From IMG/VR virus record IMGVR_UViG_3300017971_000200, positions 97,621 to 161,620 of that record: a stretch of DNA of 64,000 nt. One strand, written 5' to 3'. A program made the position numbers and the translations under genes. The notes under the pieces were generated by a model that was given only the letters and a program-made list of their open reading frames with translations, made no database searches and had not been told where the DNA came from. Positions 69 to 42,007 of the stretch are shown one piece after another (the stretch's first letter is position 1; each line of letters begins with the position of its first letter). The DNA comes from a virus.

Positions 69-107
69 AATATACGAAATAAATGTGGATTTGTCAACTG
101 TTTTCTG
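69..107 (-). promoter_or_regulatory. Phage promoter P1
   Basis: Minus-strand TTGACA (97-92), 17-base spacer, TATATT (74-69), with CAGAAAACAG directly upstream of the -35 (107-98). It reads toward the partial glycosyltransferase. The -35 box supplies the TGA stop of the nadD-like gene. Confidence 0.85.
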
Positions 108-738
108 ATCTTTTTTCATATAATTTATGTTCTCTAATGTAGTTTAAAACCTTACGGGGCAAGTATCTTCCTGCAACGGTAACTCCACTTTTCAACCAAT
201 TACGTACCAATGTTGCTGATAAACTATTCCGTTTTACATCAATTACGATAATCTTATTAATGTTTTTTGATAGAATAGGATTAGAACTAATAATTTTTGC
301 AATATCATCTGTACCTCTACCAATAACTACAAGGCTCGCCATTTCAAAAATCTTTTCTGGTTGTTTCCAATTATGAAATTCTTTTAGATTATCACTCCCC
401 ATAACGAAGAACAACTCACTTTCTCTAAACATATTTTTATATCGGCGTAACAGCTCATATGTATACATTTTTCCAAATGAAAGAGCATCTACTCCACCAA
501 CACTATAAATACATCCATCAATCGGAGCACTATCATCGAAAATTTCCTGAATCATATTGATTCTATGTTCGACATCTTCTAAACCATTTTTGTCATATTC
601 ATTATTTGTTGGCTCAAACATTAACCAACTTAGACTTAATTTTTTCGCCACTAATTCAGCAATCTGAACGTGCGCAGTTGTTATCGGATTGAATGATCCG
701 CCATAAATACCAACTTTACCCGTCAATCTCTGTGTCAT
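94..738 (-). CDS. nadD: Nicotinate/nicotinamide-nucleotide adenylyltransferase-like protein (NadD)
   Basis: 214 residues, typical NadD length. It joins an adenylyl group from ATP to a nicotinate or nicotinamide mononucleotide, the step that forms (deamido-)NAD. The N-terminus has GGSFNPITTAH (13-23), the nucleotidyltransferase GxFxPxTxxH signature, and near 172-179 there is an S-A-T-x-V-R form of the C-terminal ISSTxIR motif. The ATG has GGAG seven bases upstream and overlaps the previous gene by 23 bases. The C-terminus ENS plus stop is encoded by promoter P1. An NAD-dependent ligase lies in the same window; no other NAD gene is seen. Mononucleotide preference cannot be read from sequence. 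Confidence 0.82.
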   Translation of the reverse strand: MTQRLTGKVGIYGGSFNPITTAHVQIAELVAKKLSLSWLMFEPTNNEYDKNGLEDVEHRINMIQEIFDDSAPIDGCIYSVGGVDALSFGKMYTYELLRRYKNMFRESELFFVMGSDNLKEFHNWKQPEKIFEMASLVVIGRGTDDIAKIISSNPILSKNINKIIVIDVKRNSLSATLVRNWLKSGVTVAGRYLPRKVLNYIREHKLYEKRSENS

Positions 739-13081: not shown

Positions 13082-13342
13082 TCAGTCCTCTAATTTCTCT
13101 ATCAAATATTGTGGGTATAAAAAACTCGCGACATATAAAACACAAACTGCTAAACAACCAACAATAACAATCGGTAATCCTATCATCTTTGTTTCTAATG
13201 ATGAATTCAACCATGTATTGAAAACTAACCACCATTCAGCATAATTGAAATAATGTATTAGTGTCGGAGCAAATTTGATCGCTAAATATAATTGAACCCA
13301 AAATGTTAATAACTGTAACGCTACAACTTTTCCTTTTTTCAT
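13082..13342 (-). CDS. Small membrane protein
   Basis: 86 residues, hydrophobic at 7-30 and 55-78, aromatic-rich middle (FNYAEWWLVFNTW). ATGA overlap with the lipoprotein gene. Confidence 0.72.
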   Translation of the reverse strand: MKKGKVVALQLLTFWVQLYLAIKFAPTLIHYFNYAEWWLVFNTWLNSSLETKMIGLPIVIVGCLAVCVLYVASFLYPQYLIEKLED

Positions 13343-13656
13343 AATACCTTTCCCTCAACCTTTACCTTTTTATATGTCTTAATTTCGTGTGGGCGAATAA
13401 TATGAACTTTCTTAGTTCGTTCATCAACTAAATGAAGATATACAACCTTATTAAAGTTTTCTACACGAGCATAATTATCATCGTTGTCGCCATCAAGTAA
13501 TATATTCAACACGCGACCATCATGATAATAATATGTCATATCATATATTCCATCCATGTCTACTGTCGCCGTCGATTCAACTGTACAACTCGATAACAAT
13601 AACCCAACTAATAACAATAACAAAAATCCCTTTAACTCTTTTGTAAATTCTATCAT
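13339..13656 (-). CDS. Lipoprotein
   Basis: 105 residues. Signal helix ending in a clear lipobox L-S-S-C (Cys near 24), so lipid-anchored after export. The mature part is beta-rich. Neighbours are membrane proteins, which suggests an envelope role. Confidence 0.78.
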   Translation of the reverse strand: MIEFTKELKGFLLLLLVGLLLSSCTVESTATVDMDGIYDMTYYYHDGRVLNILLDGDNDDNYARVENFNKVVYLHLVDERTKKVHIIRPHEIKTYKKVKVEGKVL

Positions 13657-15244: not shown

Positions 15245-16489
15245 TTATTTAACAAGATTCATTCTTTTAATTGAACGATTACTACTTGTACTCAATACAT
15301 AAAAATAAGTTCCACTCGCTAACTCACTACCATCAAAATCTACGGAATAACTACCAACATTCAATCGACCATTAACTAATACTTCAACAACCCTACCCTG
15401 AATGTCATATACAACTAACTTAACATTGTCGGTATTAGGAATACTAAATTCAATCGTAGTGTTCGGATTAAATGGATTCGGATAGTTTTGAAAAACATTA
15501 AACTCAATAGGAATGTCGCCTAACGTCTCAATAGAATTTGGTTCTTCTACCTTTGGTTCGGTTAACGGACTCTCGTAGGCACCTAAATCAGGTAACCCAG
15601 GACCACATCTCGGATTTCCCTCTATATCTAATTCGGGAGCATAATACATCGTTGAATCAACTAATATGGAATCAACTCCAGCTCCAATAGCGGATGAATA
15701 ATCACTTAAATGATAATCGTTGTTTTCAAGTGAAACAAACACTGTGTCGCCCAATGTCTCACCGAATGGGGCATAAATCGAATTTGATATTGTCGCTTCT
15801 CCATCATGTGCGTTTAAAGTAACACTTTTTGTAATAATAGAATTGATAACTGTTATCTTTAATCTACTCTTGTCGGTTTCTTGATAGCCTTCAATCGGAC
15901 CGGTAACAGTTGAATTCATAATAATAGAATGAAAAACTTCCTTTGGTTCTTTACGTTCACTCTCACTATAAAGATAAATACCAGTATAAAAATCAAGTCC
16001 ATAAACTATACTATTCGTCATTTCAGTAGAAGTAGATATGAAAGCAACTCCGGCGAAATGATTTGAATTCACAATAAGATTGCGTAATTTACAAGAAATG
16101 TTTTCATTAAAATTATTAGACATACATAAAACTTGAGCGCCATAGTCTTCAAATCCCCAACTAATTGCTCTACCCCCTTTAATAGTAAATCCAATTACTT
16201 CACTACTATCAGCTTGTACCCATAATGCTTCGCCAGAACCTAAATCACCATCAATAATTGTATTCAAAATATGAAAATATCTGGCGTCCAATATAAATTC
16301 TGAAGCTAAAACAATACTCTTGTTAAGTATAACATTTGAGTATGTTCCATCACGAACGATTATTGTATCACCATCTGCTACGGAATCAATAGCCGTTTGA
16401 ATCGTCGGATAATTATCCGGTACATATACCGTTTCACCAAACGATAACGACACTAAAACTAAACTTAACAAAATAACTAAATACTTCAT
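15245..16489 (-). CDS. Secreted beta-helix protein with type IX-type sorting domain
   Basis: 414 residues from the ATG at 16489 (after GAAAGGGTT); a longer frame to 16522 precedes the signal peptide. Order: Sec signal peptide (1-18); pectin-lyase-like right-handed beta-helix beginning VPDNYPTIQTAIDSVADGDT; C-terminal FlgD-like/Por sorting domain from about 333, with NYPNPFNPNT, LVVYDIQGR and a terminal KRMNLVK strand. In FCB-group bacteria such domains route proteins to the surface. The beta-helix may bind or cut polysaccharide; no catalytic residues are evident. Its presence amid phage genes is striking. Confidence 0.87.
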   Translation of the reverse strand: MKYLVILLSLVLVSLSFGETVYVPDNYPTIQTAIDSVADGDTIIVRDGTYSNVILNKSIVLASEFILDARYFHILNTIIDGDLGSGEALWVQADSSEVIGFTIKGGRAISWGFEDYGAQVLCMSNNFNENISCKLRNLIVNSNHFAGVAFISTSTEMTNSIVYGLDFYTGIYLYSESERKEPKEVFHSIIMNSTVTGPIEGYQETDKSRLKITVINSIITKSVTLNAHDGEATISNSIYAPFGETLGDTVFVSLENNDYHLSDYSSAIGAGVDSILVDSTMYYAPELDIEGNPRCGPGLPDLGAYESPLTEPKVEEPNSIETLGDIPIEFNVFQNYPNPFNPNTTIEFSIPNTDNVKLVVYDIQGRVVEVLVNGRLNVGSYSVDFDGSELASGTYFYVLSTSSNRSIKRMNLVK

Positions 16490-16508
16490 AATATAACCCT
16501 TTCTTTGT

Positions 16509-16772
16509 TTATTTACTTTCATCTAATATATTATCTATATACCAAATATCTGCTTCGGTAATCGGATCAAATTCTTCCTTGAAATATTTACGACCAAATG
16601 AATCTTCTATATATCCACTTTCGCCCACATTCCACTGATCACGAAACATCAATCCATCATATTCTTCCTGAGTAATGTATATCCGCATCCAGAATCGCGG
16701 TGGTACATCATACATCGCTTTTACATACCTGTACTTCTGTCCTCGGTATTCCATCTTAAACTCCATATCCAT
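16509..16772 (-). CDS. Hypothetical protein
   Basis: 87 residues, aromatic and acidic, single globular domain. Overlaps the preceding 55-residue frame by 17 bases. Confidence 0.7.
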   Translation of the reverse strand: MDMEFKMEYRGQKYRYVKAMYDVPPRFWMRIYITQEEYDGLMFRDQWNVGESGYIEDSFGRKYFKEEFDPITEADIWYIDNILDESK

Positions 16773-16923
16773 TTATCAACTGAAATTGTTTCAACTTCTC
16801 AATCTCAATCTTAGTTCTAATAATATCCAACTCCAATTTAATTATTTGAGCTTGACGCTGATCGATGATCTTACTTTTGAGTAATCTCATAACATCTTTG
16901 TATACATCACTATTTCTTGACAT
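16756..16923 (-). CDS. Small coiled-coil protein, first gene of transcript
   Basis: 55 residues, one long charged helix (MSRNSDVYKD...). ATG about 20 bases past the -10 of promoter P6, with AAAAGGAAA upstream. Too short to name. Confidence 0.65.
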   Translation of the reverse strand: MSRNSDVYKDVMRLLKSKIIDQRQAQIIKLELDIIRTKIEIEKLKQFQLINGYGV

Positions 16924-17197
16924 TTTTATTTCCTTTTACACTAATATAAGACTTTTTAGAATACTTGTCAACTGTTTTTTTCAGATACCATTGATAAATG
17001 GCGAAAATCTTATCAAAAAATGTAACATCACTTACTAAGTAACAACTGTGTTCTTGACCAGTATACTTCACTTTATTATCATGAAATATCTTTTCTTTTC
17101 CATACTTAGTACAATAAATGTATTTACCATGTTCATTCTTGAATATACATTTTTCGCCAACTAAAATGTTATTAAAATACTTTTTTTCTAACTTCAT
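16910..17197 (-). CDS. Hypothetical protein running through a promoter
   Basis: 95 residues. The first 70 are beta-rich; the last 25 (KKTVDKYSKK...) are encoded by promoter P6 itself and its leader, so the tail is probably dictated by the regulatory site rather than by function. Confidence 0.68.
   Translation of the reverse strand: MKLEKKYFNNILVGEKCIFKNEHGKYIYCTKYGKEKIFHDNKVKYTGQEHSCYLVSDVTFFDKIFAIYQWYLKKTVDKYSKKSYISVKGNKNVKK
16943..16981 (-). promoter_or_regulatory. Phage promoter P6
   Basis: TTGACA (16971-16966), 17-base spacer, TATATT (16948-16943), variant block GAAAAAAACAG. Lies inside the end of the 16910-17197 frame and drives the genes down to 12560. Confidence 0.85.
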
Positions 17198-17511
17198 TAA
17201 AATATCCCACTAAAACTTTGAAATGAAAATCCCATTATTAAAATTAAAAATACACCGATCGCCGTCAACAATGAAAATATCGATATTCCTACAAATTCCA
17301 TCGGTGTCATACTTTGCAATGTTGTATTCTTGTCATATGTAAAATACAAAAATAAAACTCCAACAACTATCAAGAAAATTCCAGGGTTATCGGCGAAAAC
17401 AAAAATAATCGACACCAATACACTTATTATTACTGAAATTAAAAGTATACCTACAAATAACCCTACTAACCAATGACTACCTTGATTAAAATTTTGTCTA
17501 CTCGTGTACAT
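17197..17511 (-). CDS. Membrane protein
   Basis: 104 residues with three hydrophobic segments (about 14-36, 40-57, 76-97). Start ATGTACACG; ends adjacent to the next gene's start. Confidence 0.72.
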   Translation of the reverse strand: MYTSRQNFNQGSHWLVGLFVGILLISVIISVLVSIIFVFADNPGIFLIVVGVLFLYFTYDKNTTLQSMTPMEFVGISIFSLLTAIGVFLILIMGFSFQSFSGIF

Positions 17512-17642
17512 TATATTTCCCTCGTGTTTAATTCAACTATAACTTTGTTTATCTCGCCCATTTCTTGTATGGAAGCACAAATGTAGCCAATAAGATAGGC
17601 GACAACCATCAAAAGAATACCTAATATAATCCATAAAAACAT
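17511..17642 (-). CDS. Membrane microprotein
   Basis: 43 residues (MFLWIILGIL...), one hydrophobic helix then an acidic tail. Shares its last bases with the next gene's start. Confidence 0.65.
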   Translation of the reverse strand: MFLWIILGILLMVVAYLIGYICASIQEMGEINKVIVELNTREI

Positions 17643-17645
17643 AAT

Positions 17646-17852
17646 TTACTCCATCAAATATTTATCTAAATAATTTTTAATTATTGTAAGTTTCTTTACT
17701 GTACCATGTACGTAAAACATACTTGTATAAAATGAAATCTTTGTTTCTGTCCAAAACTCAATATACTTTTTTTCTTCACACTCAATACAAAATCGTCTGA
17801 AATCAGCCTTCCCAAAACCACTAACCTCATATCTCATTTTCGCTTCACTCAT
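17646..17852 (-). CDS. Small hypothetical protein
   Basis: 68 residues, two Cys (RRFCIECEEK), beta then helix. No recognised family. Confidence 0.68.
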   Translation of the reverse strand: MSEAKMRYEVSGFGKADFRRFCIECEEKKYIEFWTETKISFYTSMFYVHGTVKKLTIIKNYLDKYLME

Positions 17853-17854
17853 TA

Positions 17855-18118
17855 TTAACCCTTTCCAAATAATCTAATCAAAATTGCTAATAACGCGGAT
17901 AATATAACTAAATCTTGTACCTTTAAATCACTCACTGGTTTATCAAACCAACTAGCAACTTGTGGTGAAGTAGCTATCATTTCTAATACATGGGCGAGAA
18001 AATAAACAATACAAAATAAAACAAATAATCCTATAATTGTTCCCACAATTAAAAGTATAGCCTTTCCAAACCACGAATCTAAAATACTCCAAAATCCTAA
18101 TGTAATCTTATTCCACAT
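17855..18118 (-). CDS. Small membrane protein
   Basis: 87 residues from the ATG at 18118 (MWNKITLGFW) following GGAAAGG; the frame also opens with GTG at 18133. Long hydrophobic helix at 21-48 and a second near 70-84. Confidence 0.7.
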   Translation of the reverse strand: MWNKITLGFWSILDSWFGKAILLIVGTIIGLFVLFCIVYFLAHVLEMIATSPQVASWFDKPVSDLKVQDLVILSALLAILIRLFGKG

Positions 18119-18136
18119 ATAAAACCTTTCCACAAG

Positions 18137-18173
18137 TTAAAGTGTCAACTAAATATTAAAGTGTCAACTAAAT
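18137..18173. repeat. Tandem 18-bp direct repeat containing TTGACA
   Basis: TTAAAGTGTCAACTAAAT occurs at 18137-18154 and 18156-18173, exact copies one base apart. On the minus strand each has TTGACA, but no TATATT lies 17 bases downstream. The right copy provides the stop codon of 18168-18347. Confidence 0.85.
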
Positions 18174-18347
18174 TCGTTTTGTATATGTTATCAACACTGA
18201 ATATTTCCTATCACTCATTTGATATTGTAACTCACATGAAACCCGTTCGTCGGGATATAGTGAATCTAAAAAATCATTTACCTTTTTCTCAAAACTTACT
18301 TCACGAGTATCTTCTATTAATTTAACCTGAAATTTCTTTGGTGACAT
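18168..18347 (-). CDS. Small hypothetical protein
   Basis: 59 residues (MSPKKFQVKL...), alpha/beta, with AAGGAATAAG ahead of the ATG. Ends in the tandem repeat. Confidence 0.65.
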   Translation of the reverse strand: MSPKKFQVKLIEDTREVSFEKKVNDFLDSLYPDERVSCELQYQMSDRKYSVLITYTKRI

Positions 18348-18363
18348 AACTTATTCCTTTTAA

Positions 18364-18651
18364 TTAGTCATTTATTAATAATAATCTTATTCCATCTTCA
18401 CTTTTATAATTCCATCCAGCTATCTCGTCACTGTTCATATCATTGTGCGTATGAAAAAATACCTTGTGATTCTCGGTCTCAACATTGATAACTTCCACGG
18501 AATCAAAATGTAACTTACCCTTACTATCCCTACGAGCGGGACCGGAAAAATCGTCAAAACGACCATCTAACTCGGATACTTCCCAAACTAAACTACGGTT
18601 CTTCTTGTTCCAAGCACGTTTCATCAATTCCTTTGTTACATATAATCTCAT
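18364..18651 (-). CDS. Hypothetical protein, first gene of transcript
   Basis: 95 residues from the ATG at 18651 (MRLYVTKEL) after AAAGGATTTT. A frame start at 18693 would sit on the promoter. Charged alpha/beta protein ending in an acidic segment. Confidence 0.73.
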   Translation of the reverse strand: MRLYVTKELMKRAWNKKNRSLVWEVSELDGRFDDFSGPARRDSKGKLHFDSVEVINVETENHKVFFHTHNDMNSDEIAGWNYKSEDGIRLLLIND

Positions 18652-18684
18652 TCCTAAAATCCTTTCAAATTTTATCAGTACTAT

Positions 18685-18723
18685 AATATACAAAATAAAA
18701 CCGTATTTGTCAACTGTTTTCTG
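18685..18723 (-). promoter_or_regulatory. Phage promoter P7
   Basis: TTGACA (18713-18708), 17-base spacer, TATATT (18690-18685), full upstream block. The TGA of the upstream gene is within the -35. Confidence 0.88.
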
Positions 18724-18961
18724 ATAAATCTGGTAACTTTGGTAAATCCACTTTCATAAAATGTGCTTCCTCTACCTCACTCTCGTACATAAACTGCCCG
18801 CTCGCTACATACATAAATCCATTAGCACACCTGTGTACTTCCATAAACATTAACTCCGGTTTAACGGTCTCACCATTCGGTCTGTCATACTTACCATATC
18901 GATAACCATAAAACCAATAACAACCTTCCTCTTTCGGAAATTCTCTACTCCATTTACTCAT
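18710..18961 (-). CDS. Hypothetical protein
   Basis: 83 residues. The start (EEGCYWFYGYRYG) resembles small phage proteins that begin G-x-Y-W-x-x-R. Ends LSENS plus stop, encoded by promoter P7. Confidence 0.72.
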   Translation of the reverse strand: MSKWSREFPKEEGCYWFYGYRYGKYDRPNGETVKPELMFMEVHRCANGFMYVASGQFMYESEVEEAHFMKVDLPKLPDLSENS

Positions 18962-19077
18962 TCTAATTCTCCATTTCTCGGGGCGAGCCCGATACCAATC
19001 ACTCTTTTAATAATTTTACGTTCGGAAACGGCGACTCCACCAATAATTACTTTAATTAATTTCTCGCCGCTAACCAA
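18958..19077 (-). CDS. Small protein with TTG start
   Basis: 39 residues from a TTG at 19077 with AAAGGAT just upstream and an ATGA overlap with the next gene. Sequence MVSGEKLIKVIIGGVAVSER. Short and non-ATG, so tentative. Confidence 0.45.
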   Translation of the reverse strand: MVSGEKLIKVIIGGVAVSERKIIKRVIGIGLAPRNGELE

Positions 19078-19083
19078 TATCCT

Positions 19084-19275
19084 TTAATTAAAAATAATCG
19101 TTTCGGAAACTTCTCTGGGTTGCGGAATATAAATAACTTCACCATCGGTAAATATGTTCATTTCCTTAAACTCGTATAAAGGAAGTTCCTCAATATCATC
19201 TACTAAATCAATCGGTACGTTTCGTATAACCTTTTCACCTGAATCGTTGTGAAATATCATCTTGACTGTAACCAT
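19084..19275 (-). CDS. Small hypothetical protein
   Basis: 63 residues, beta-rich, acidic, ending in a strand-like ETIIFN. AAAGG before the ATG. Confidence 0.7.
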   Translation of the reverse strand: MVTVKMIFHNDSGEKVIRNVPIDLVDDIEELPLYEFKEMNIFTDGEVIYIPQPREVSETIIFN

Positions 19276-19294
19276 TAAATAACCTTTCCTTTCT

Positions 19295-19909
19295 TTACCT
19301 CTGTAATACTAACTTCTTAGTGTCTCTAAAATACGTTGTCGTCATTTGATAAAAATATACACCACTCGATACCTGTTCACCATTATCATTCCTACCATCC
19401 CACCGTATCTTGTAATGTCCTATATCCTTACTCTCGTCAACTAAAACCCTAACCTTGTTCCCTAACATATCATAAACTACTATCGTTACACTCGTGTTCT
19501 TTGCTATACTATACTCAATCGTCGTTATGGGATTAAACGGGTTCAGATAATTTTGAGATAAATCATACGATTTATCTCCGTCATTATCCTCACCAACAAT
19601 TCGTGTAACTGTCGTGCTGACTTCATTCGACGGCCCACTCTCTAATACATTTAAAGAATCATCATGATATACTGCTGTGACTTTCCAATAATATGTCTCT
19701 CCCTCTGTAATCTGGTAATCATAATAAAAGGAATCTAAACCCGCTACATTATCTAAATATACCATCGTTCCTGCTTGTATATCCCTATACATCCTATAAT
19801 CAATAAGTGTATAATTTGGATCATTAGGTGGCGTCCACTCTAAATGTATATATTCCTGAGAAAATAACCCTTGACTTAATAAAAATAAAAATATTAATAA
19901 TTTTCTCAA
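19295..19909 (-). CDS. Secreted fibronectin-III-like protein with sorting domain
   Basis: 204 residues. Sec signal peptide (1-17); one fibronectin type III-like domain (about 20-105; LEWTPPNDP, YYWKVTAVY); then a type IX-type sorting domain from about 117 with QNYLNPFNPIT, VVYDMLGNKV and a final KKLVLQR strand. Together with 15245-16489 it shows the phage exports proteins for display on, or release from, the host surface. It could block other phages, alter adhesion or bind glycans; substrate unknown. Confidence 0.86.
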   Translation of the reverse strand: MRKLLIFLFLLSQGLFSQEYIHLEWTPPNDPNYTLIDYRMYRDIQAGTMVYLDNVAGLDSFYYDYQITEGETYYWKVTAVYHDDSLNVLESGPSNEVSTTVTRIVGEDNDGDKSYDLSQNYLNPFNPITTIEYSIAKNTSVTIVVYDMLGNKVRVLVDESKDIGHYKIRWDGRNDNGEQVSSGVYFYQMTTTYFRDTKKLVLQR

Positions 19910-19937
19910 TGCGCCTCTCCGGTTACGGCGACAATCC

Positions 19938-20120
19938 TTATTTCTTCTTGTCCACCAATTCTGCTTTCATGATACTTACATCAACTACTATATATGCTAA
20001 AGCTAATAATACCATTCTCTCAAATGTATATATTCCAACATCAACACTTATTACAAATACAAAGTATACTATTAAATATGATCCAATTCTTTGAAAAACT
20101 CTTTTTGTGTGTTTATCCAT
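19938..20120 (-). CDS. Small membrane protein
   Basis: 60 residues with two hydrophobic helices (12-30 and 34-52) and basic ends. Overlaps the upstream gene by 8 bases. Confidence 0.68.
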   Translation of the reverse strand: MDKHTKRVFQRIGSYLIVYFVFVISVDVGIYTFERMVLLALAYIVVDVSIMKAELVDKKK

Positions 20121-20505
20121 TCTTTAATATCCCTTTTATTACATCAGCTAATGCTTTTAATCCCTCTAATGTGTCTACATGATATAAACCTACTCCAAAT
20201 CCCTTATACCATTCTTTAGGTGACGGACATCCACAATGACCAGCAACCCGAACAACCTGACCATATTCCTTATGTAACTTCTCGGCGACATCCGCAGGAA
20301 TACCCGGCCCTCGACATACCCAATATGTCCACGCTCTCTCAAATCCCCAACCTGAACCCTTAATCTCTCCAATTACGGATGTAGGTACTTCACCATCAAA
20401 AGGGCGACTGAATTTCGTATACTCAATACCAGCATACTTTAATTCTCTGATAATACCATCGTCACAATCCGCAACACCAGCATAATTCTTTAAATAATCA
20501 TCCAT
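20113..20505 (-). CDS. Hypothetical protein
   Basis: 130 residues, alpha/beta, with a conserved-looking centre (YWVCRGPGIPADVAEKL) and a Cys/Gly-rich loop (GHCGCPSPKEW). Looks like a real globular phage protein, but I cannot name the family. Confidence 0.76.
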   Translation of the reverse strand: MDDYLKNYAGVADCDDGIIRELKYAGIEYTKFSRPFDGEVPTSVIGEIKGSGWGFERAWTYWVCRGPGIPADVAEKLHKEYGQVVRVAGHCGCPSPKEWYKGFGVGLYHVDTLEGLKALADVIKGILKNG

Positions 20506-20672: not shown

Positions 20673-21116
20673 TTATAAATTTCTTATCTCTATTGAATCA
20701 TCATACTCTAAATCGTATACATACTCTGTAGAATCACTTAAAATCTCAATCGTAGTCTCAACTAAAAAATCTGTATATACACCTAATGAATCCTTTGGTA
20801 CAATATATATCTGCTGAGCTAATGTGTAATACTCATAATAATCTTCATCCCACGCGTACCAGATCATCGAAATCGCTAATACACTGTCACTCGTCAATTT
20901 TGTGATGTCTGCCATATCAGGTGATAAAAATAACATTCCATCGTCGCCATTTGTAATACAAAATAAATCACTATCATCAAAACTCGTTTCAAGTGAATCT
21001 AAAAATTGTGTTTCTAATGAACTATATTCAAGACCATCGGTTACCCAAATCGTTGTCGGTAACTCTTGACCAAAACTTATTCCAACTAATAAAATGAATA
21101 TTAAACTAAATCTCAT
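20673..21116 (-). CDS. Secreted acidic protein
   Basis: 147 residues, Sec signal peptide (1-16, ISFGQ), strongly acidic mature part rich in Asp, Ser, Tyr. No sorting domain. Likely periplasmic or surface. Confidence 0.77.
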   Translation of the reverse strand: MRFSLIFILLVGISFGQELPTTIWVTDGLEYSSLETQFLDSLETSFDDSDLFCITNGDDGMLFLSPDMADITKLTSDSVLAISMIWYAWDEDYYEYYTLAQQIYIVPKDSLGVYTDFLVETTIEILSDSTEYVYDLEYDDSIEIRNL

Positions 21117-23418: not shown

Positions 23419-23574
23419 TCATTTATTATATCTAAATATACGAAAAAATAGCGTATTTGTCAACTGTTTTCTGATATTTCTGAAATCAATAAGCCTCTCA
23501 GCATTCAAAATCCCAATACCTAAAATCAACATCAATAATAACCAACTACCTAATAAAATGATTCTGATGTCCAC
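23419..23574 (-). CDS. Possible membrane microprotein, GTG start
   Basis: 51 residues from a GTG at 23574 that overlaps the upstream TAG, with GGAG eight bases before it. Hydrophobic helix (4-22); the C-terminus is encoded by promoter P8. Could also start at an internal ATG. Tentative. Confidence 0.4.
   Translation of the reverse strand: MDIRIILLGSWLLLMLILGIGILNAERLIDFRNIRKQLTNTLFFRIFRYNK
23435..23473 (-). promoter_or_regulatory. Phage promoter P8
   Basis: TTGACA (23463-23458), 17-base spacer, TATATT (23440-23435), full upstream block. Confidence 0.88.
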
Positions 23575-23982: not shown

Positions 23983-24153
23983 ATATTTCTTTCAATGCTG
24001 GCAATATATTTTATCCTCTCATATCATATACACCGGGGCGCGTCTCAAAAAGCGACCTCACGACACAAGCACACAATGTTGAGCGCACCGGTGCTGCTGC
24101 TCTTCTGTTTTCCTGACTTTCCCCCTGTCTCCGTGTACCCGTGTCCAGCGCAT

Positions 24154-24183
24154 AAAAAAAACCGGACTCAAAAGAATCCGGTT
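24154..24183 (-). terminator. Rho-independent terminator
   Basis: Nine-pair stem (24161-24169 with 24174-24182, one G-T pair), four-base loop, then seven Ts on the minus strand. Confidence 0.85.
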
Positions 24184-24297
24184 CGCGGGGTGCGCTACCA
24201 TGCAGCTCGTATACGTTATAACTCGTTTGTCTACTCGTAAGTATGACTCACTCTTATATATTATACTCAGGGATACGGTTAAAAGTTCCCTAAAATA

Positions 24298-24327
24298 GAA
24301 AAAACCGAGGTGTGACCAGCACCTCGG
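24298..24327 (-). terminator. Rho-independent terminator after the CobS-like gene
   Basis: Perfect 8-bp stem CCGAGGTG/CACCTCGG (24305-24312 and 24320-24327), 7-base loop, followed by a T-run on the minus strand. Confidence 0.88.
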
Positions 24328-24389
24328 CTTTCCTTGCAAGAACGAGTAGGTATAGGAAAGGAGTTAACTATACCATACTCTTGTTTATA

Positions 24390-24438
24390 GTCCGAGACAC
24401 CACTCTCAGACTTATTAACCGGGACACCACTCCCGGTT
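24390..24438 (-). other. Twin RNA hairpins with identical GUGGUG loops
   Basis: Two 8-bp stems, 24390-24411 and 24417-24438, differ in stem sequence but keep the same six-base loop (GTGGTG on the transcript). They start about 30 bases after the CobS-like stop codon. Neither is followed by a T-run, so they are not ordinary terminators; they could be a protein-binding or RNA-stability element. Confidence 0.7.
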
Positions 24439-24467
24439 ATCCCCAACTAACCACCTATCCTATATAA

Positions 24468-25754
24468 TTAGTTTGTAAAGAAATCTTCGTCCTCGTTGAA
24501 TAGATCATCCGTTTCATTGTTTTCCGATTCCTCTACTTCCTGTACTTCTACTTTTGGTTTCGCCATTGGAAATGTGTCTACATTATCCAAATGACTTTCA
24601 CCTTGTACAACTTGTCTCATGTGCGCTCTCTCAGATTCCCCGACTCCGCCTTCATCGTCGTACATTGGAAATACGACAGCTTCCATTACCTCGGTGAACT
24701 TGAAACCATCAATCAATAACGCGACCTGCTCAACAGTTGACCGTGTCGAAATAATAGTTGATAATTCCGGTTCCTCGGATATAACGTTTTCTCGTGTATA
24801 CCAAGCAACTTTGGCGATACCCTTGAGTAATTCTTTATTCACTTTAGGATATAACAACTTCAAAAGATTATATTCTTCATCTTCCGTTAAAACAGGTATA
24901 TCTACTATTGTGGTGAATCTATCTTTTGTCGCCCGATCAATCTGACGAGTTGATGTATATTCCGTACCAACGTTCTCAGTACCAAAGAAACATACACCAT
25001 CAGCAACCTCAACTACAGGGGTATCAGGATGTTCGTCAATTCTGAGATAACGTTGATCTTTGTCAAGTACCGTTAAAAGGATATTCTCGGCGTCATTGGA
25101 AAGCCGTGAGACTTCATCCAAAACTACCACTGCACCCGGAGTAGTAATCGCTGTAACGAATTCACTTTTGGCGAAATACGTACCTTTATCAGGATCGTAG
25201 TGAGTATTACCAATCAAAGCTGTACGAGCGTCCTGCATCGCTCCAAGATTAAACTTGAAAACTGGGCGACCATACGCTTTTGCTAATGTAGTAGCAGTTA
25301 AAGTTTTTCCACCACCACTATGACCATTAAATAATATATTTTCTCCGCGTAACAGAGCACGTACACTATATTTCCAATGAAGTTCTGAAAGAACTAAGGT
25401 ATTAGGTTTTTTAGCGTAAGCGTTCATTACACCGGTTCTTACTTCATCATCAGTAAGTTTCTTATACTCATTATCATTAGAGTTTTCGCCAGACGAAACA
25501 CCGGGATCGGCGAACGGACTCGTATACGATTTTGGTAACTTGTCCTTTTCAATACGACGCCAGATAACGTTCCCCGCTTTGGAAACTTTCTTACCAAGAT
25601 AACGTTCCCTGTCTACGGCGAAACGGCGAGCCCCATAAGGAATAGTTTCATTCACCGGTTCACGGGATAAAACTTCCACGGGTACTAATTTGTTTCCCTC
25701 TCTTATTACTTCTACAATAATGTCAAATGAATCTTGTTTTTTATTTTTCGCCAT
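24468..25754 (-). CDS. CobS/MoxR-type AAA+ ATPase
   Basis: 428 residues. Central AAA+ domain with Walker A GHSGGGKT (144-151) and Walker B VVVLDE (about 209-214); the sensor region has FFGTENVGTEY, and RATKDRF carries the likely arginine finger. Layout is like cobaltochelatase CobS and MoxR proteins, which form rings working with a VWA partner. The likely partner is the CobT-like protein at 9933-12506. The N-terminal 110 residues and acidic C-terminal tail (residues 400-428) are phage-specific in look. Own promoter (25790-25828), followed by the twin hairpins and terminator. Target unknown. Confidence 0.87.
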   Translation of the reverse strand: MAKNKKQDSFDIIVEVIREGNKLVPVEVLSREPVNETIPYGARRFAVDRERYLGKKVSKAGNVIWRRIEKDKLPKSYTSPFADPGVSSGENSNDNEYKKLTDDEVRTGVMNAYAKKPNTLVLSELHWKYSVRALLRGENILFNGHSGGGKTLTATTLAKAYGRPVFKFNLGAMQDARTALIGNTHYDPDKGTYFAKSEFVTAITTPGAVVVLDEVSRLSNDAENILLTVLDKDQRYLRIDEHPDTPVVEVADGVCFFGTENVGTEYTSTRQIDRATKDRFTTIVDIPVLTEDEEYNLLKLLYPKVNKELLKGIAKVAWYTRENVISEEPELSTIISTRSTVEQVALLIDGFKFTEVMEAVVFPMYDDEGGVGESERAHMRQVVQGESHLDNVDTFPMAKPKVEVQEVEESENNETDDLFNEDEDFFTN

Positions 25755-25789
25755 TTGGCGACTCCTTAATTAGTGATCAATAATACTAT

Positions 25790-25828
25790 AATATAATAAA
25801 TATAATCTACAATGTCAACTGTTTTCTG
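25790..25828 (-). promoter_or_regulatory. Phage promoter P10
   Basis: TTGACA (25818-25813), 17-base spacer, TATATT (25795-25790), full upstream block. Drives the AAA+ gene as a single-gene transcript. Confidence 0.88.
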
Positions 25829-25830
25829 GT

Positions 25831-26115
25831 TTATTTTCTAAGTTTATCGTTTATACTTTTTGGATAATGCTTACCTGCTCTCTTAGATACATAGTTGAAA
25901 ATCCGTGATCCGCATTCCATACATTCGCCGAAATGACCTTTCATTTTTATAGTTCCAACGGAAAACTTAGTGTCGTTCGGCAAGAAACCAAACCCTGTCG
26001 GTAACTCCAGAGTCCCTGTTCCATCGGCCCATACATCGCCCCCACCTTTACAATCGGGACACTCCATATAGTTTTTCTTCTTGTCATACTTTTTAATCTT
26101 TGGTAAATCTGACAT
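25831..26115 (-). CDS. Zinc-ribbon protein
   Basis: 94 residues with CPDC near 19 and CMEC near 66 about 47 residues apart, basic C-terminus (KRAGKHYPKS). A single zinc ribbon with a Gly-rich insert. First and only gene after promoter P11. Confidence 0.76.
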   Translation of the reverse strand: MSDLPKIKKYDKKKNYMECPDCKGGGDVWADGTGTLELPTGFGFLPNDTKFSVGTIKMKGHFGECMECGSRIFNYVSKRAGKHYPKSINDKLRK

Positions 26116-26144
26116 CTTAGTTCCTTTCTAAATGTTACAATACA

Positions 26145-26183
26145 AATATAACTAATTACCGCTTAACAGTCAACTGTTTTCTG
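26145..26183 (-). promoter_or_regulatory. Phage promoter P11
   Basis: TTGACT (26173-26168), 17-base spacer, TATATT (26150-26145), full upstream block. Confidence 0.85.
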
Positions 26184-26268
26184 ATCTTTTTTTCATTAAC
26201 CTTTTCGCCAACGAGCTCGGAAAAAGAGGCGAACCGCGCACGGAGTCTGGCCTGTTATCCCACAATAC
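26184..26268 (-). ncRNA. Candidate short RNA between promoters P12 and P11
   Basis: Promoter P12 fires into about 85 bases with no gene except a possible eight-codon frame that ends in P11. The segment 26200-26262 is GC-rich for this genome and contains CTCGGAAAAAGAGGC (26216-26230), repeated at 26359-26373. A short untranslated RNA is plausible; no known family is recognised and no terminator is seen. Confidence 0.35.
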
Positions 26269-26373
26269 AATATAATAAATTAATAGTCAACAGTCAACTG
26301 TTTTCTGAGAAAAGCGTCCCAGCTAAATGGACACTGGAACACGGTTTATTTTCGCGCACTCGGAAAAAGAGGC
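26216..26373. repeat. 15-bp direct repeat pair
   Basis: CTCGGAAAAAGAGGC at 26216-26230 and 26359-26373, one on each side of promoter P12, both near GCGCAC. A looser pair ACACGGTTTA at 26339-26348 and 26438-26447 lies alongside. Confidence 0.8.
26269..26307 (-). promoter_or_regulatory. Phage promoter P12, no protein gene downstream
   Basis: TTGACT (26297-26292), 17-base spacer, TATATT (26274-26269), full upstream block. An extra AGTCAA lies at 26285-26290, at the wrong spacing. Confidence 0.83.
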
Positions 26374-26866
26374 TATACCTTTATTTCAGGAAGCCATTAG
26401 CATGCCCGTATTTTTATTGTAGGACGGCGTCCCTGTGACACGGTTTATACCCTTGTTGGAAATGATCTTTGGAAATGGGGCGCCAATAACGCCGTCACAC
26501 AAGCACACCGTGGTGCTGAGACAATTTGATATTCTTTTATGGGCGTTATGGAATACTAAGTGTATAACTGAAAGTGGTTGACAGTGGTGTAAAGTGGTTG
26601 ATTGTGGATATTTGAAAAATATTTCAAAAGCGTAAAGACAATAACGAGACTCTTTACAGAATATGTGATAAAGTATTGAGGCTCAACGGAGTTAGATGAA
26701 CTGTAGTACAGTAATGGTGGGATATGAATGGCGAAGGTACAACTGTGTCATTTTGGTATATGATAAGGTGTGAACAGGGACACTGAGAATAGTGGAGTAG
26801 TTTACAGGGATGAAAGGAATGAGTAGATTTATATTAAAAAAGGATTTTATGAGTTGAATAAATTTC
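26308..26866. other. Non-coding stretch with candidate replication origin
   Basis: About 560 bases without a convincing gene. From about 26520 the plus strand becomes G-rich, unlike the C-rich plus strand to the left. Contains phased GTGG repeats, a DnaA-box-like 9-mer and an AT-rich inverted repeat (separate entry). The part right of 26640 is G-rich, low in C, and shows no motif I can name. Confidence 0.5.
26571..26628 (+). repeat. Phased GTGG decamers, DnaA-like box and inverted repeat
   Basis: Four ten-base units (26571, 26581, 26591, 26601) each have GTGG at the same position; units one and three are identical, AAAGTGGTTG. The fourth runs into TGTGGATAT (26603-26611), one base off the DnaA box TGTGGATAA, followed by inverted repeat TTTGAAA-AATA-TTTCAAA (26611-26628). 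Iteron-like phasing, a DnaA-type box and AT-rich DNA are the usual parts of an origin; the function is inferred. Confidence 0.55.
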
Positions 26867-27127
26867 TTATTGTTGACCGATTGTTTTAGATTTAGATTTA
26901 CCACATCGTATACATTTGTATTGTACGATAAAGGGAATTAAGGGAGTAGTCAGGAACGCTGTTAGTATACCGGTAATAGGGTTAGATGAATTTGGTTGTT
27001 TAATATCATTAGGGTTAGAGATTTCATATTTATGAATTCCGAGTATACATCTAACAGAGAATGATTTCTTTTTAGGTTTATTTCTTAGAGTAATTCCGTG
27101 AGTGTCATATAGATTTCTTTTATTCAT
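26867..27127 (-). CDS. Small protein with C-terminal Cys pair
   Basis: 86 residues: basic N-terminus with a Cys in SVRCILGIHKYE, a hydrophobic centre (TGILTAFLTTPLIPFIV), then YKCIRCGKSKSK. A lone CxxC plus Cys/His may bind zinc. Last gene before the non-coding stretch. Confidence 0.7.
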   Translation of the reverse strand: MNKRNLYDTHGITLRNKPKKKSFSVRCILGIHKYEISNPNDIKQPNSSNPITGILTAFLTTPLIPFIVQYKCIRCGKSKSKTIGQQ

Positions 27128-27145
27128 ATTACTATGTCCTTTATA

Positions 27146-27412
27146 TTAGTCAAATAGTTTTTTACATTTTTCAGCAGTTTCATTTACAGTATCATTATTA
27201 TTTTTGTTGTCGCCACAAAAGATGTAATGAAGTTTTTTGAGTAGTTCTCTCAATGGATAATTTCCCGGTTCCAGGAGTTGTTCTTTTTTGACGATCATTT
27301 TATGTACTTTTTTATGATGTTTGAATACCCATCTTAACATTTCTATTTCGTCTTTATTAAATGTAAGTGTTAATTCTTCTATCGTATTATTTGTTTTGAT
27401 TGATGCTTTCAT
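27146..27412 (-). CDS. Hypothetical protein
   Basis: 88 residues; beta start (LTLTFNKDEIEMLRWVF) then helices. Coding strand here is poorer in G than in other minus genes, in line with the changed skew near 26.5 kb. Confidence 0.7.
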   Translation of the reverse strand: MKASIKTNNTIEELTLTFNKDEIEMLRWVFKHHKKVHKMIVKKEQLLEPGNYPLRELLKKLHYIFCGDNKNNNDTVNETAEKCKKLFD

Positions 27413-27433
27413 ATTGTGATCCTTTATTTTTTA

Positions 27434-27694
27434 TTATGTCGCCTCGACATCATGAGTATTTACTAATGTAGAATGATTAGTTTGTTGACATTCATGTAAT
27501 GTCATTAGAATAAGATTTCTTACAGCGTTATCGTATACAAATGATCTTGAAAGTGAATCAGTCCATTGACCGAGTTTCAGTCTCAGGTAGTGATATTGTT
27601 CTCTATACTCAGCGTCACTGATATGCGGTTCATGAAGTGATCCCATATTAAATTGATGTAGAGTTTGACAAATTTCAAGTATATTTTTATTCAT
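27434..27694 (-). CDS. Hypothetical helical protein
   Basis: 86 residues, helical, His-rich. AAAGGAAT ahead of the ATG. No family recognised. Confidence 0.7.
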   Translation of the reverse strand: MNKNILEICQTLHQFNMGSLHEPHISDAEYREQYHYLRLKLGQWTDSLSRSFVYDNAVRNLILMTLHECQQTNHSTLVNTHDVEAT

Positions 27695-27845
27695 TTTTTA
27701 TTCCTTTTTCTTTATTGATTTGATTTATCAGTGATTGTATATATTGTAAATGAGCGTAATAGGAACCTGAGTAAGTCCAATTTCCATTTTCTTCAAGACG
27801 TTTTGCTTCTATTAATTCACGTTCTAAACGTTCAAGTTTAGTCAT
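27687..27845 (-). CDS. Small coiled-coil protein
   Basis: 52 residues (MTKLERLERE...), charged helix. GAGAGGAT upstream; overlaps the next start by 8 bases. Confidence 0.65.
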   Translation of the reverse strand: MTKLERLERELIEAKRLEENGNWTYSGSYYAHLQYIQSLINQINKEKGIKNE

Positions 27846-27981
27846 TTTCATATCCTCTCCAGATGATGATTACGATTTTTTTGTAGTCATATATTTCAAA
27901 TAGTTTATAGTTATGTGGTTTCTTTTTATGTTTATGGAATGTAAGAGTATGTGGATTCCATTCATATATTTCTTTTTTCAT
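27838..27981 (-). CDS. Small basic protein
   Basis: 47 residues with HKHKKKPHNYK, then a strand-like end (KIVIIIWRGY). GAAAGGACAC before the ATG. Confidence 0.63.
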   Translation of the reverse strand: MKKEIYEWNPHTLTFHKHKKKPHNYKLFEIYDYKKIVIIIWRGYEND

Positions 27982-28024
27982 TTAGTGTCCTTTCATCAGA
28001 GAACCGAATGTTTTTTATTAAAGA

Positions 28025-28231
28025 TTAACTGGTATCTTTTGTCATTTGATTATACAGGGAAGTAAGACATCTTTTTTGTTCTTTAGACAGTTTACCTTGA
28101 TTAAGTTGTAGGAATAGTTCTCTTATTTTTTTAATCGCCTCATTAATATCGTCTTGGATCAAGATTCTATTAGGTTGAGTAGACAGAATAATAGCTCCCT
28201 TTGTAGTAAATTCTTTTGGTTGATTTTTCAT
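28025..28231 (-). CDS. Small hypothetical protein
   Basis: 68 residues: strand (GAIILSTQPNRILI) then two helices. No family recognised. Confidence 0.68.
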   Translation of the reverse strand: MKNQPKEFTTKGAIILSTQPNRILIQDDINEAIKKIRELFLQLNQGKLSKEQKRCLTSLYNQMTKDTS

Positions 28232-28313
28232 TGTATTATATTTTACCTCTTATGTATTCAATTTTTATACGTCACCGAGGCGTAATTTAATTAAAGATTA
28301 ATTGGTGACTCTC

Positions 28314-28493
28314 TCACTCCGTGAAATAGAATTCTTTAAGTTCTTTAATTATTTCATGAACTTGTGCTAATGCTATAGAGTAGTCCATTTCATCAGGGAA
28401 ATCAGGGAGTTTAACCGCAGTTTCCAATTTATCTACGAGTTCATCTTTCCATTCGTTATTTGCTTCTGCTATACCTGCTGATATTATACTCAT
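28314..28493 (-). CDS. Small acidic helical protein
   Basis: 59 residues (MSIISAGIAE...), acidic, ATGA overlap with the lipoprotein gene upstream. Stop followed by a 100-base gap with no clear signal. Confidence 0.65.
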   Translation of the reverse strand: MSIISAGIAEANNEWKDELVDKLETAVKLPDFPDEMDYSIALAQVHEIIKELKEFYFTE

Positions 28494-28861
28494 TTTTCTT
28501 CGTCCTTTCCGTCGTATTCATTATATTTAAACCACAAGACATTATAGTAAGGGATAAACAGATTACCGTCGAAGTCTTTACAGTTATGTAGAGTAATGAA
28601 GTCAAACATAGCTTTCATAGTTACATCTTCGCAGTAGAATGTAGCAGCTATCATACTATCTTTATATTTCACTTGTACTTTATATTTGTATACCGTGTTA
28701 CTTATGAGATTATCATTTTGGATTTCGCCAGTTGGAATTGTGTTATTTTGTTCGGCGTCACTGTTACAACCGTATACAAAAAGACTTATCACAAAACAAA
28801 CGAGTACCGCGAATCCGATTCTAATCCAAATATCTGCTTCATCCATATCTTTATATTTCAT
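28490..28861 (-). CDS. Lipoprotein
   Basis: 123 residues. Charged N-terminus, hydrophobic helix (14-30) and lipobox V-Y-G-C, then a beta-rich domain (YKYKVQVKYKDSMIAATFYC). Similar in plan to 28862-29152, so the two may be paralogues acting at the envelope. Confidence 0.74.
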   Translation of the reverse strand: MKYKDMDEADIWIRIGFAVLVCFVISLFVYGCNSDAEQNNTIPTGEIQNDNLISNTVYKYKVQVKYKDSMIAATFYCEDVTMKAMFDFITLHNCKDFDGNLFIPYYNVLWFKYNEYDGKDEEK

Positions 28862-29152
28862 TTAGTCCTCCAGATTTTCTCGATAATAGTATTTGACATT
28901 ATAGTATTCTATATAAAATTTATTATTATTAGCTTCTTTACAATCATCTATGTATATTGTACTACCGGTTATTCTTACATTTGATCCATGAAAGATTTCA
29001 GTAGAATCATTATTAAAAGTAATAACAAGTCTTTCTTTATAGATACTTTCATCATTAAGGTTTTCGCCACAACCGACTTGGGCGAACAAAATACAAAATG
29101 TCAATCCAAGTAAAAGTATAGAATGTACTATCCAAATTTGATAACGTTTCAT
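28862..29152 (-). CDS. Lipoprotein-like protein
   Basis: 96 residues from the ATG at 29152 (MKRYQIW) after GAAAGGA; an in-frame ATG at 29170 overlaps the upstream stop but has a poor binding site. Signal helix ends AQVGC, a weak lipobox. The mature part ends FYIEYYNVKYYYRE, like FIPYYNVLWFKYNE in the next protein. Confidence 0.7.
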   Translation of the reverse strand: MKRYQIWIVHSILLLGLTFCILFAQVGCGENLNDESIYKERLVITFNNDSTEIFHGSNVRITGSTIYIDDCKEANNNKFYIEYYNVKYYYRENLED

Positions 29153-29169
29153 TTTATGTCCTTTCGCCA

Positions 29170-29637
29170 TTAATCACTAAATACACCATATCCAACAAAC
29201 TCAATGTGTCTATCCTTATCGTCGTGACCGTAAAACGGTAACCAGGGAATAGGATCATTAATAATTCTCAGATCTAAATCTTCGTCACAATAATTTAGCA
29301 GAAATACCCAAAGTTCAGCCATATCTTCTGGCGACAAATGGATTTCTTGTAGATGATTTTCCATATCAGTAATAGATGTCCAGTCAAATCCCATATCTTT
29401 GAGTAGTTGATATTCAGGGTCAGCTTTCCTGATAAAGTCAACACCATATTCATCACAAAGATTGTGGATGTCTACTCCCGTTTTATCTTTAATAGTGTAA
29501 TGAACTTCTCTTACATATGCGACAGGTTTTGCTGAATGGACAAGGAAGTATTCACATTTACCGTGACCATCAGCACTCCAGTCTCCGATGGGAAGTTTAA
29601 ATTCGTATAATTGTTGAACGTCATTATTTTCATTCAT
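29170..29637 (-). CDS. Conserved-looking phage protein
   Basis: 155 residues. The start (LPIGDWSADGHGKCEYF) has the look of a conserved family I have seen in phage and plasmid hypotheticals, but I cannot name it. Cytosolic, acidic. Confidence 0.76.
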   Translation of the reverse strand: MNENNDVQQLYEFKLPIGDWSADGHGKCEYFLVHSAKPVAYVREVHYTIKDKTGVDIHNLCDEYGVDFIRKADPEYQLLKDMGFDWTSITDMENHLQEIHLSPEDMAELWVFLLNYCDEDLDLRIINDPIPWLPFYGHDDKDRHIEFVGYGVFSD

Positions 29638-29638
29638 A

Positions 29639-29848
29639 TTATCCGTCCTTTTTATCTCCTAATGTATCTAAAAAATTCATTAATTTTTCATAACAAGTAG
29701 AACACAAATCTTTTTCACCCGCGACACTGCGTTGTATGTGAGTATGTTTATCTACTTCAAATGATATTTTATAAAATGGATCAAAAGAAGCTTTTTTATC
29801 TACTTCAAAACCACAACCATCACATACTATTATTTCTTTTTTCGCCAT
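29639..29848 (-). CDS. Zinc-ribbon protein
   Basis: 69 residues; CDGC near 9 and CSTC near 49 with a beta-rich insert. AGGAGATA upstream of the ATG. Confidence 0.73.
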   Translation of the reverse strand: MAKKEIIVCDGCGFEVDKKASFDPFYKISFEVDKHTHIQRSVAGEKDLCSTCYEKLMNFLDTLGDKKDG

Positions 29849-29857
29849 AATTATCTC

Positions 29858-30115
29858 CTATTTATACGCTTCATCCACTCGATCAAATTGTGGTGGCTCC
29901 ACAGTTGGATCGGGCAATAATCCCTCTTGTTCAAGTTGAAATTCTAAATCAACGATTCGTTTGCGAAGATACTCAATACATTCCATAGTAGGTTTACCAT
30001 ATTCTTTACTATGAACTTCTTGTGATCCACATACACGACAAACTTCATTCGGTTCTTCTTGACCCTTATTAAGTCCACGCCGATCATTAATTGTATATCC
30101 CTTTTCTTCACTCAT
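29858..30115 (-). CDS. Small protein with Cys pair
   Basis: 85 residues, CRVC near 26, a third Cys near 46 and a charged helix after it. Pro-rich acidic end. Confidence 0.7.
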   Translation of the reverse strand: MSEEKGYTINDRRGLNKGQEEPNEVCRVCGSQEVHSKEYGKPTMECIEYLRKRIVDLEFQLEQEGLLPDPTVEPPQFDRVDEAYK

Positions 30116-30132
30116 AATTTACCCCTTTCTTA

Positions 30133-30369
30133 TTAATAAGAACCATCTATTAAGGCGATACCTATTGCGAACGGGAACGCGAAACATAACCAACCAACAG
30201 TACCCGACAATCCCCACATGATAGCTCCCCAGATGAACAGCCAAAATGATGGTTCAGTAATACCATGAAACATATTTACAGCTCCACCCCAAAAGAGTAG
30301 ATAAACACCTACGTATAGACCTATAACTATACCGATTAAAATTAATAAACCACCTAATAATTTCTTCAT
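30133..30369 (-). CDS. Small membrane protein, first gene of transcript
   Basis: 78 residues, three hydrophobic segments (5-28, 41-52, 55-72). GAAAGGAAC before the ATG, just past promoter P13. Confidence 0.72.
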   Translation of the reverse strand: MKKLLGGLLILIGIVIGLYVGVYLLFWGGAVNMFHGITEPSFWLFIWGAIMWGLSGTVGWLCFAFPFAIGIALIDGSY

Positions 30370-41242: not shown

Positions 41243-42007
41243 TTATAATAAATCTGGACGGTATTTTTCCATAAGATTACGAGACGCTGCAATTATTTCA
41301 TCTTCAACAAAATAACGATTGTAAACTATTATCTTCTCGATGTAACCGTGAAAATCCATATCATCACGATCAATTTGCCAATTACCAATGATTAACGGGT
41401 CAGCCACAACAGGCGCGATAGTTAATGGATCAACAGGATTGTATACTGTGTTATCACAATTAACTCCATTGACATAAAATATTGATGAAGATTGATGGTA
41501 TCTCCAGTCAGGAACTGACCAACACGCTACATAAGTTGTATCTACTGTTTGAACCGCATTTGTAGTTCCAACTCTACCACCTGGCTGCCAATGATCAGTA
41601 GCTATATCATAATTATTCCCATATGAAAAGAAACACATTCCATCATAACCGTCAGATGGATTTTGACTTACTAATGTAGCAAATGTACTATGTGTCGATT
41701 GTTCAAATACGGCGAATACTGTAATAGGAAATTGAGCTAACCCCGAAAATACACTATTATTTTGTGTTTGAAAATAATCATGAACATGAGCATTAGGATA
41801 ATTAAAAGCTAATGCGGGACGACCCGCAGTATTTATGGAAGCTGATGGAGCATTAGTAGAAATACAATGATTTTGTTGTTGACTTAAATCTTCCCATGTA
41901 CCATTAAGTCCTGTATAAACATAATTTTCAGCATCCAAGTGTAAAACACAATTAGGATCGGTTGATTTAAAGTTACTCCACAATGGAGCTCCACTACGAA
42001 CGGTCAT
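41243..42007 (-). CDS. LamG/concanavalin-like protein 6 of 6
   Basis: 254 residues, most diverged of six tandem paralogues: it keeps CVLHLDAENYV at the N-terminus and DEIIAASRNLMEKYRPDLL at the end but lacks the RARFGV terminus. Beta-sandwich LamG folds bind sugars; in phages they usually sit in tail fibres or virion decorations. Overlaps the next copy as ATGA. Confidence 0.78.
   Translation of the reverse strand: MTVRSGAPLWSNFKSTDPNCVLHLDAENYVYTGLNGTWEDLSQQQNHCISTNAPSASINTAGRPALAFNYPNAHVHDYFQTQNNSVFSGLAQFPITVFAVFEQSTHSTFATLVSQNPSDGYDGMCFFSYGNNYDIATDHWQPGGRVGTTNAVQTVDTTYVACWSVPDWRYHQSSSIFYVNGVNCDNTVYNPVDPLTIAPVVADPLIIGNWQIDRDDMDFHGYIEKIIVYNRYFVEDEIIAASRNLMEKYRPDLL

Follow-up and report, generated by a model that had tools for sequence, protein, structure and literature searches.

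Two minus-strand genes of a phage record from IMG/VR encode proteins that carry Sec signal peptides and match, at their C-termini, the type A sorting domain of the type IX secretion system (T9SS). Bacteria of the FCB group (Bacteroidota and allied phyla) direct proteins of their own to the cell surface by means of such a signal peptide and C-terminal tag. The record, IMGVR_UViG_3300017971_000200, comprises 161,620 bp; the window, meaning the whole stretch of 64,000 nucleotides that was analysed, corresponds to its positions 97,621-161,620, i.e., its final 64 kb. Our reading, to which we assign a probability of roughly 0.77, is that genes 1 and 2 are captured surface proteins of host type, which serve as cargo for the T9SS of the host; the phage probably redecorates the surface of its host in this manner. 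Both open reading frames (ORFs), their signal peptides and their sorting-type domains were present where the original prediction had located them, and the start that it gave for gene 1 (16489) was correct.

Gene 1: 15245..16489 (-), 414 aa, predicted secreted beta-helix-type protein with a T9SS type A sorting domain, from profile matches and the cellular homologues L289/L292
Gene 1 signal peptide: 16436..16489 (-), approximately 18 residues, from sequence, cleavage site placed by eye
Gene 1 C-terminal sorting domain: 15263..15484 (-), TIGR04183 match (record 112883-113104) and predicted fold
Gene 1 Shine-Dalgarno sequence AAAGGG: 16497..16503 (-), in a phage with 72% Shine-Dalgarno use
Gene 2: 19295..19909 (-), 204 aa, TTG start, predicted small secreted protein, fibronectin-III (FN3)-like, with a C-terminal sorting/FlgD-like domain
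Gene 2 signal peptide: 19856..19909 (-), approximately 18 residues, from sequence, cleavage site placed by eye
Gene 2 C-terminal sorting domain: 19301..19549 (-), TIGR04183 match (record 116921-117169) and predicted fold

The reading frame of gene 1 is open from 15245 to 16522, and an additional upstream ATG is present at 16522. The start at 16489 was preferred because the AAAGGG Shine-Dalgarno (SD) sequence precedes it by 7 nt and the signal peptide (MKYLVILLSLVLVSLSFG) opens there. The TTG start of gene 2 is immediately preceded by GGAGAGG. The n-, h- and c-regions of a Sec signal peptide are visible in both proteins (flagged by script for gene 1, recognised by eye for gene 2).

Sorting domains and protein architecture

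A profile search, as proposed in the original prediction, was performed with the curated cut-offs of the models. TIGR04183 (T9SS type A sorting domain; cut-off of 23 bits) was passed by both gene 1 (42.9 bits, E = 3.7e-11) and gene 2 (33.4 bits, E = 3.3e-8). PF18962 (cut-off of 27 bits) was passed by gene 1 (41.4 bits) and reached by gene 2 (27.0 bits), and the FlgD_ig model PF13860 (cut-off of 27 bits) was passed by gene 2 only (36.3 bits, versus 23.1 bits for gene 1). Exactly two TIGR04183 matches are present in the 161,620-bp record, and these are genes 1 and 2; only two of the 14 named control genomes contained matches to this model. The scores of the C-terminal domains (CTDs) are thus well in excess of chance. 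Full-length FlgD equivalog models gave no more than 30.1 bits against cut-offs of at least 230, with the match confined to the immunoglobulin (Ig) part. The original prediction had held that matches to unrelated Ig folds alone would count against it; the domains score to sorting-domain models.

Both domains are located at the very C-terminus, with a PNP-type opening, a GxY motif and a basic last residue. The columns that are invariant over an alignment of 26 CTDs (YxNPFNPxT, two glycines and GxY) are retained in genes 1 and 2. Structure prediction based on this alignment, which is drawn mostly from other viral contigs, returned a beta-sandwich for both CTDs (pLDDT of ~95). Foldseek searches with these models identified substrate CTDs bound to the T9SS, namely NucA (8glk_D, TMt 0.65), RemA (8gl6_D, 0.58-0.60) and 8gl8_D (0.55), as well as the Ig domain of FlgD (0.41-0.46) and many generic Ig-like folds. 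A sorting domain and an FlgD-type Ig domain are therefore not distinguished by fold alone; the sequence profile and the context discriminate between them.

The N-terminal parts were less well defined. For the part of gene 1 that had been described as a beta-helix, the matches to NosD (19.4 bits) and to the choice-of-anchor Q model (20.6 bits, cut-off of 25) were sub-threshold, the Pfam beta-helix models showed no match and the fold model was poor and unusable. The fibronectin-III-like part of gene 2 had no Pfam match, and its only similarities (E ~0.06) mostly concerned a single stretch in the chains of insulin receptors. Both labels are plausible at the sequence level, with matches that are sub-threshold or absent from Pfam.

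Of 100 genomes sampled from the class of G086 (Ca. Kapaibacterium), 16 contained homologues of the N-terminal part of gene 1. Two cellular ORFs, L289 and L292, encode beta-helix surface proteins ordered as in gene 1, with a signal peptide, a beta-helix opening of the VPxxYxTIQAAI type and a sorting domain with a QNYPNPFNPxT tail (43.9 bits to PF18962 for L292). They differ from gene 1 in being cellular genes, and their identity to it (~37-45%) is confined to the opening third. Judged from these homologues, the layout of gene 1 is that of a common host surface protein.

Phage context and the host group

The record belongs to a myovirus, with a baseplate wedge protein that shares 42-53% identity with its counterparts in Microcystis phage Mel-JY01, an uncultured huge phage and Flavobacterium phage immuto. 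RNA ligase, a Dda-like helicase, NAD-dependent ligase, ThyX and a nucleotide-sugar epimerase are also encoded. Genes 1 and 2 lie at 112-117 kb of the record, at a large distance from the baseplate gene (9-11 kb), and have no match in PHROG. They share the strand of their surroundings, GC content and GC skew are unchanged at both genes, and their SD sequences and GC content resemble those of the remainder of the phage.

The record contains 37 minus-strand copies of one extended sigma70-like promoter (consensus ~CAGAAAACAGTTGACA-N17-TATATT), of which 17 are in the window against 0.05 expected. The two copies of relevance to genes 1 and 2, and the positions of all copies in the window, are as follows:

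Phage promoter TTGACA-N17-TATATT: 16943..16971 (-), upstream of gene 1 and of the small ORFs that precede it
Nearest strong promoter copy upstream of gene 2: 23435..23463 (-), gene 2 would then be the most distal gene of a multi-gene unit
Promoter copies in the window (-), first nine: 97, 2933, 8025, 9920, 12563, 16971, 18713, 23463, 23972
Promoter copies in the window (-), other eight: 25818, 26173, 26297, 30433, 39730, 40728, 41226, 53699

For gene 2, transcription would begin at the 23463 copy or at a weaker site nearby; the minus strand between this promoter copy and the gene showed no terminator-like hairpin. The region belongs to the phage and is not host chromosome, the alternative that the original prediction had named as its refutation: strand, composition, start signals and promoter are all phage-like.

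The tail motif YPNPFNPxT was present in 20 of 26 genomes sampled from the class of G086, with up to 271 sites, and the PorU sortase was above the cut-off in all 26. Flammeovirga and similar organisms carry well over 100 sorting domains each, yet the motif is nearly absent from their class (Bacteroidia), with one site among 40 genomes. In the genomes sampled, this flavour of tail is lineage-specific. Of the phages compared, the host is known for immuto only, and the tail of immuto follows the dialect of the class of that host. Such a match is not expected of a purely structural Ig fold, although as a single case this is thin evidence.

An SD core precedes 72% of 149 phage genes, compared to 20% in shuffled sequences and 5% in Flavobacterium phage immuto. 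Bacteroidia ribosomes make no use of SD signals (PMC6847099, PMC9976891). Promoters of the TTGACA type are abundant in the record, and a Bacteroidia-type promoter pattern was found zero times in the window against 3.4 expected. Because of the SD use, the TTGACA promoters and the absent Bacteroidia-type promoter, the host is probably an SD-using bacterium of the FCB group outside Bacteroidia. A Bacteroidia host, first suggested by the cellular relatives of a TonB receptor encoded in the record, was dropped on the SD and promoter evidence and on that of PMC6847099 and PMC9976891. The Ca. Kapaibacterium genome G086 was not upheld as a model host, as it has zero YPNPFNPxT sites.

A sorting function is likely because of the cellular homologues of the same layout, the lineage-bound tail and the presence of PorU in the tail-bearing class.

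Proposed route, alternatives and precedents

Genes of this kind would have been captured by the phage from its host group. During infection, both would be transcribed from the phage's own promoters and translated, and the products would cross the inner membrane via Sec by means of their N-terminal signal peptides. In the periplasm, they would be recognised through the C-terminal Ig-like sorting domain, pass through the outer-membrane translocon of the host, be trimmed and be attached to the surface or released. A surface beta-solenoid and a small beta-sandwich protein could then alter what the infected cell presents; the most plausible effect would be that receptors are masked or occupied against rival phages, or that adhesion is altered. 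Export, a T9SS in the actual host and the surface location of both proteins are what we infer from the features above, and superinfection exclusion as the purpose is a guess that we consider less likely than not.

Several observations weigh against cargo for the T9SS. Gene 2 has YLNP where most CTDs have YPNP, its FlgD_ig score (36.3 bits) is slightly higher than its TIGR04183 score (33.4 bits), and it barely reaches the PF18962 cut-off; TIGR04183 and FlgD_ig moreover describe related folds. Possession of a T9SS by the host is an assumption. In four genomes sampled from the tail-bearing class, SD use was 6-43%, versus 72% in the phage, and this class therefore serves as a stand-in and not as a host assignment. 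The pair of genes 1 and 2 was not found among the baseplate relatives or the TonB-receptor relatives searched. We know of no experiment that demonstrates the export of a phage CTD.

The two proteins could instead be virion components, i.e., a tailspike with a beta-helix and a decoration protein with an Ig domain, in which the FlgD-like domain is a promiscuous Ig fold of phage particles. Beta-helices are common in tailspikes, and Ig domains of FlgD are among the structural matches of the CTDs. Some crAss-BACON phages carry T9SS-domain genes near their head genes (PMC6949934). We consider this unlikely given the Sec signal peptides on both proteins, the distance from the baseplate gene, the host-type surface-protein layout, the retained sorting-domain motif set with its basic last residue and the lack of a PHROG match. 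Far less likely still is an adaptor that docks secreted proteins to a periplasmic or surface partner, a use of the FlgD-like fold in which the CTD is no T9SS signal: TIGR04183 is passed by both proteins, the structural match is to T9SS-bound CTDs, and the NPFNPxT opening and basic terminus are features of sorting domains, set against the 36.3 bits of gene 2 to FlgD_ig, above the cut-off, and a profile search that yields FlgD sequences as the sole solved relatives.

Genes 1 and 2 might also be recent host acquisitions (morons) that are exported little or not at all and bring the phage no benefit. Close relatives are absent from all viral collections searched, the layout of gene 1 is cellular, and no sibling phage with the pair, by which its retention could be judged, was found. 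The frames are nevertheless open, the signal peptide and tail motif are intact, the SD sequences and GC content are phage-like, a phage promoter lies upstream, and sorting-domain cargo recurs in other phages, so that this explanation also appears improbable. Cargo for the T9SS remains the preferred reading. The proposal of the original prediction that the domains are FCB-type tags for a host T9SS is supported by the profiles, fold, tail flavour, architecture and phage regulation, and its interpretation as a whole is supported in part.

The original prediction had suggested that the same pair would be sought in related phages; no searched record carries it, and other phages have other tailed cargo. 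Searches of IMG/VR and of 50,697 phage records with the whole proteins yielded close relatives of neither. Among the 2.9 million viral contigs of IMG/VR, 50 stretches, some of which may be host DNA, contain YPNPFNPxT. In G043, one further clear phage, a sorting-domain gene and a homologue 72.6% identical to window 20113-20505 are separated by 3 kb; the genes of G043 elsewhere are phage-like and of a different lineage. The IMG/VR contigs G037-G040 have a similar sorting-domain protein common to all four, and further sorting domains are present in the huge phages LR756502, LR745206 and LR756501.

In immuto (MW353176), a distant relative with a baseplate wedge 42% identical to that of the present phage, gene 15 encodes a secreted protein with a sorting domain (13186-13419; TIGR04183, 47.1 bits); the protein is annotated solely as a cohesin domain protein. 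It differs from genes 1 and 2 in its cohesin cargo, its Bacteroidia-type YPVP tail and the absence of SD use in the phage. A CsgG-like gene adjoining the sorting-domain gene in immuto and related phages was considered and dropped, as it had no Pfam match. Separately, an ORF on a 6.1-kb contig (L029:4556-6079) has a phage tail-adaptor-like N-terminal part in frame with a QNYPNPFNP sorting domain, and may be a chimera or a real fusion.

Cryophage carries genes with T9SS type A sorting domains, for which a hijack of host export and possible superinfection exclusion have been proposed (Bellas et al. 2020; PMC7468147). Genes 1 and 2 are, likewise, phage-embedded genes tagged with such domains. Cryophage, a Bacteroidetes phage of 76 kb, carries endoglucanase, GH39 and PA14 cargo, whereas the present phage is a myovirus of 161 kb whose host probably uses SD signals and whose cargo is beta-helix-type and FN3-like. 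The crAss-BACON phages (2019) also have proteins with T9SS sorting domains (PMC6949934), and differ in their predicted Bacteroidetes hosts, in the location of the genes near head genes and in their BACON domains. No further reports of phage T9SS sorting-domain proteins were found in the literature searched, which was scant on subscription papers. The route had been called little-described, which is right; it is not undescribed, as precedents exist (PMC7468147, PMC6949934), previously noted only in passing, and superinfection exclusion had been proposed in PMC7468147. New here are another phage lineage, the visible phage regulation and the lineage-specific tail.

Provided that the tails are functional, chosen proteins could be placed on the surface of an infected cell by the phages of a very large group of bacteria, and the dialect of a tail on a phage gene would be of help in predicting the host. 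Occurrence is wide but thin, comprising the IMG/VR stretches and the Bacteroidia-type tails of isolated phages and huge phages, and this suggests that the earlier reports were no freaks. Only tentatively can it be proposed that FCB-group phages of many lineages repeatedly capture dialect-matched host surface proteins under phage promoters, as a general T9SS-routed remodelling for superinfection exclusion.

Other features of the window and the record

Three neighbours of genes 1 and 2 were recorded:

Phage gene close upstream of gene 2: 20113..20505 (-), with the 72.6% identical homologue in phage G043
Secreted neighbour without a sorting domain: 20673..21116 (-), 147 aa
Putative lipoprotein neighbour: 13339..13656 (-), lipobox LLSSC

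The background of the window is uniform, but at 24000-29000 GC content rises to 0.41, and GC skew disappears and then becomes positive. The same segment contains two strong hairpins of terminator-like form (24159-24333) and three copies of the promoter (25790-26297). This segment is possibly an origin or a transcription boundary. An uninterrupted run of six minus-strand ORFs at 41243-45632, all similar in size (223-254 aa), is perhaps a tandem gene family. No Rfam families were identified in the window.

Genes for a TonB-dependent receptor, PnuC and a NadR-like protein are present at 25317-30171 of the record (L004:5817-10671), outside the window. Among 25 IMG/VR loci with the receptor (L236-L260), which include the phage's own twin fragment and near-duplicates, a NadR-like homologue was nearby in 23 and a PnuC homologue in 16; the receptor and its neighbours were also found in two huge phages. 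Record 94174-96776 (L007:16174-18776), together with window 94-738, encodes NAPRTase, NAD synthase, an isochorismatase/nicotinamidase-like protein and a nucleotidyltransferase (CTP_transf-like; window 94-738), by similarity close to a full NAD salvage pathway. With the receptor, PnuC and the NadR-like protein, these genes look like an NAD-precursor uptake and salvage set reaching the outer membrane. No paper in the literature searched brought these features together.

The record also contains approximately 40 tRNAs, mostly at 44-85 kb (L005-L007), one of which, with anticodon CTA, was called as tRNA-Pyl (L005:15362-15433). A phage-encoded transfer-messenger RNA with the tag GNELQLAA is present at 19584-19913 (L003).

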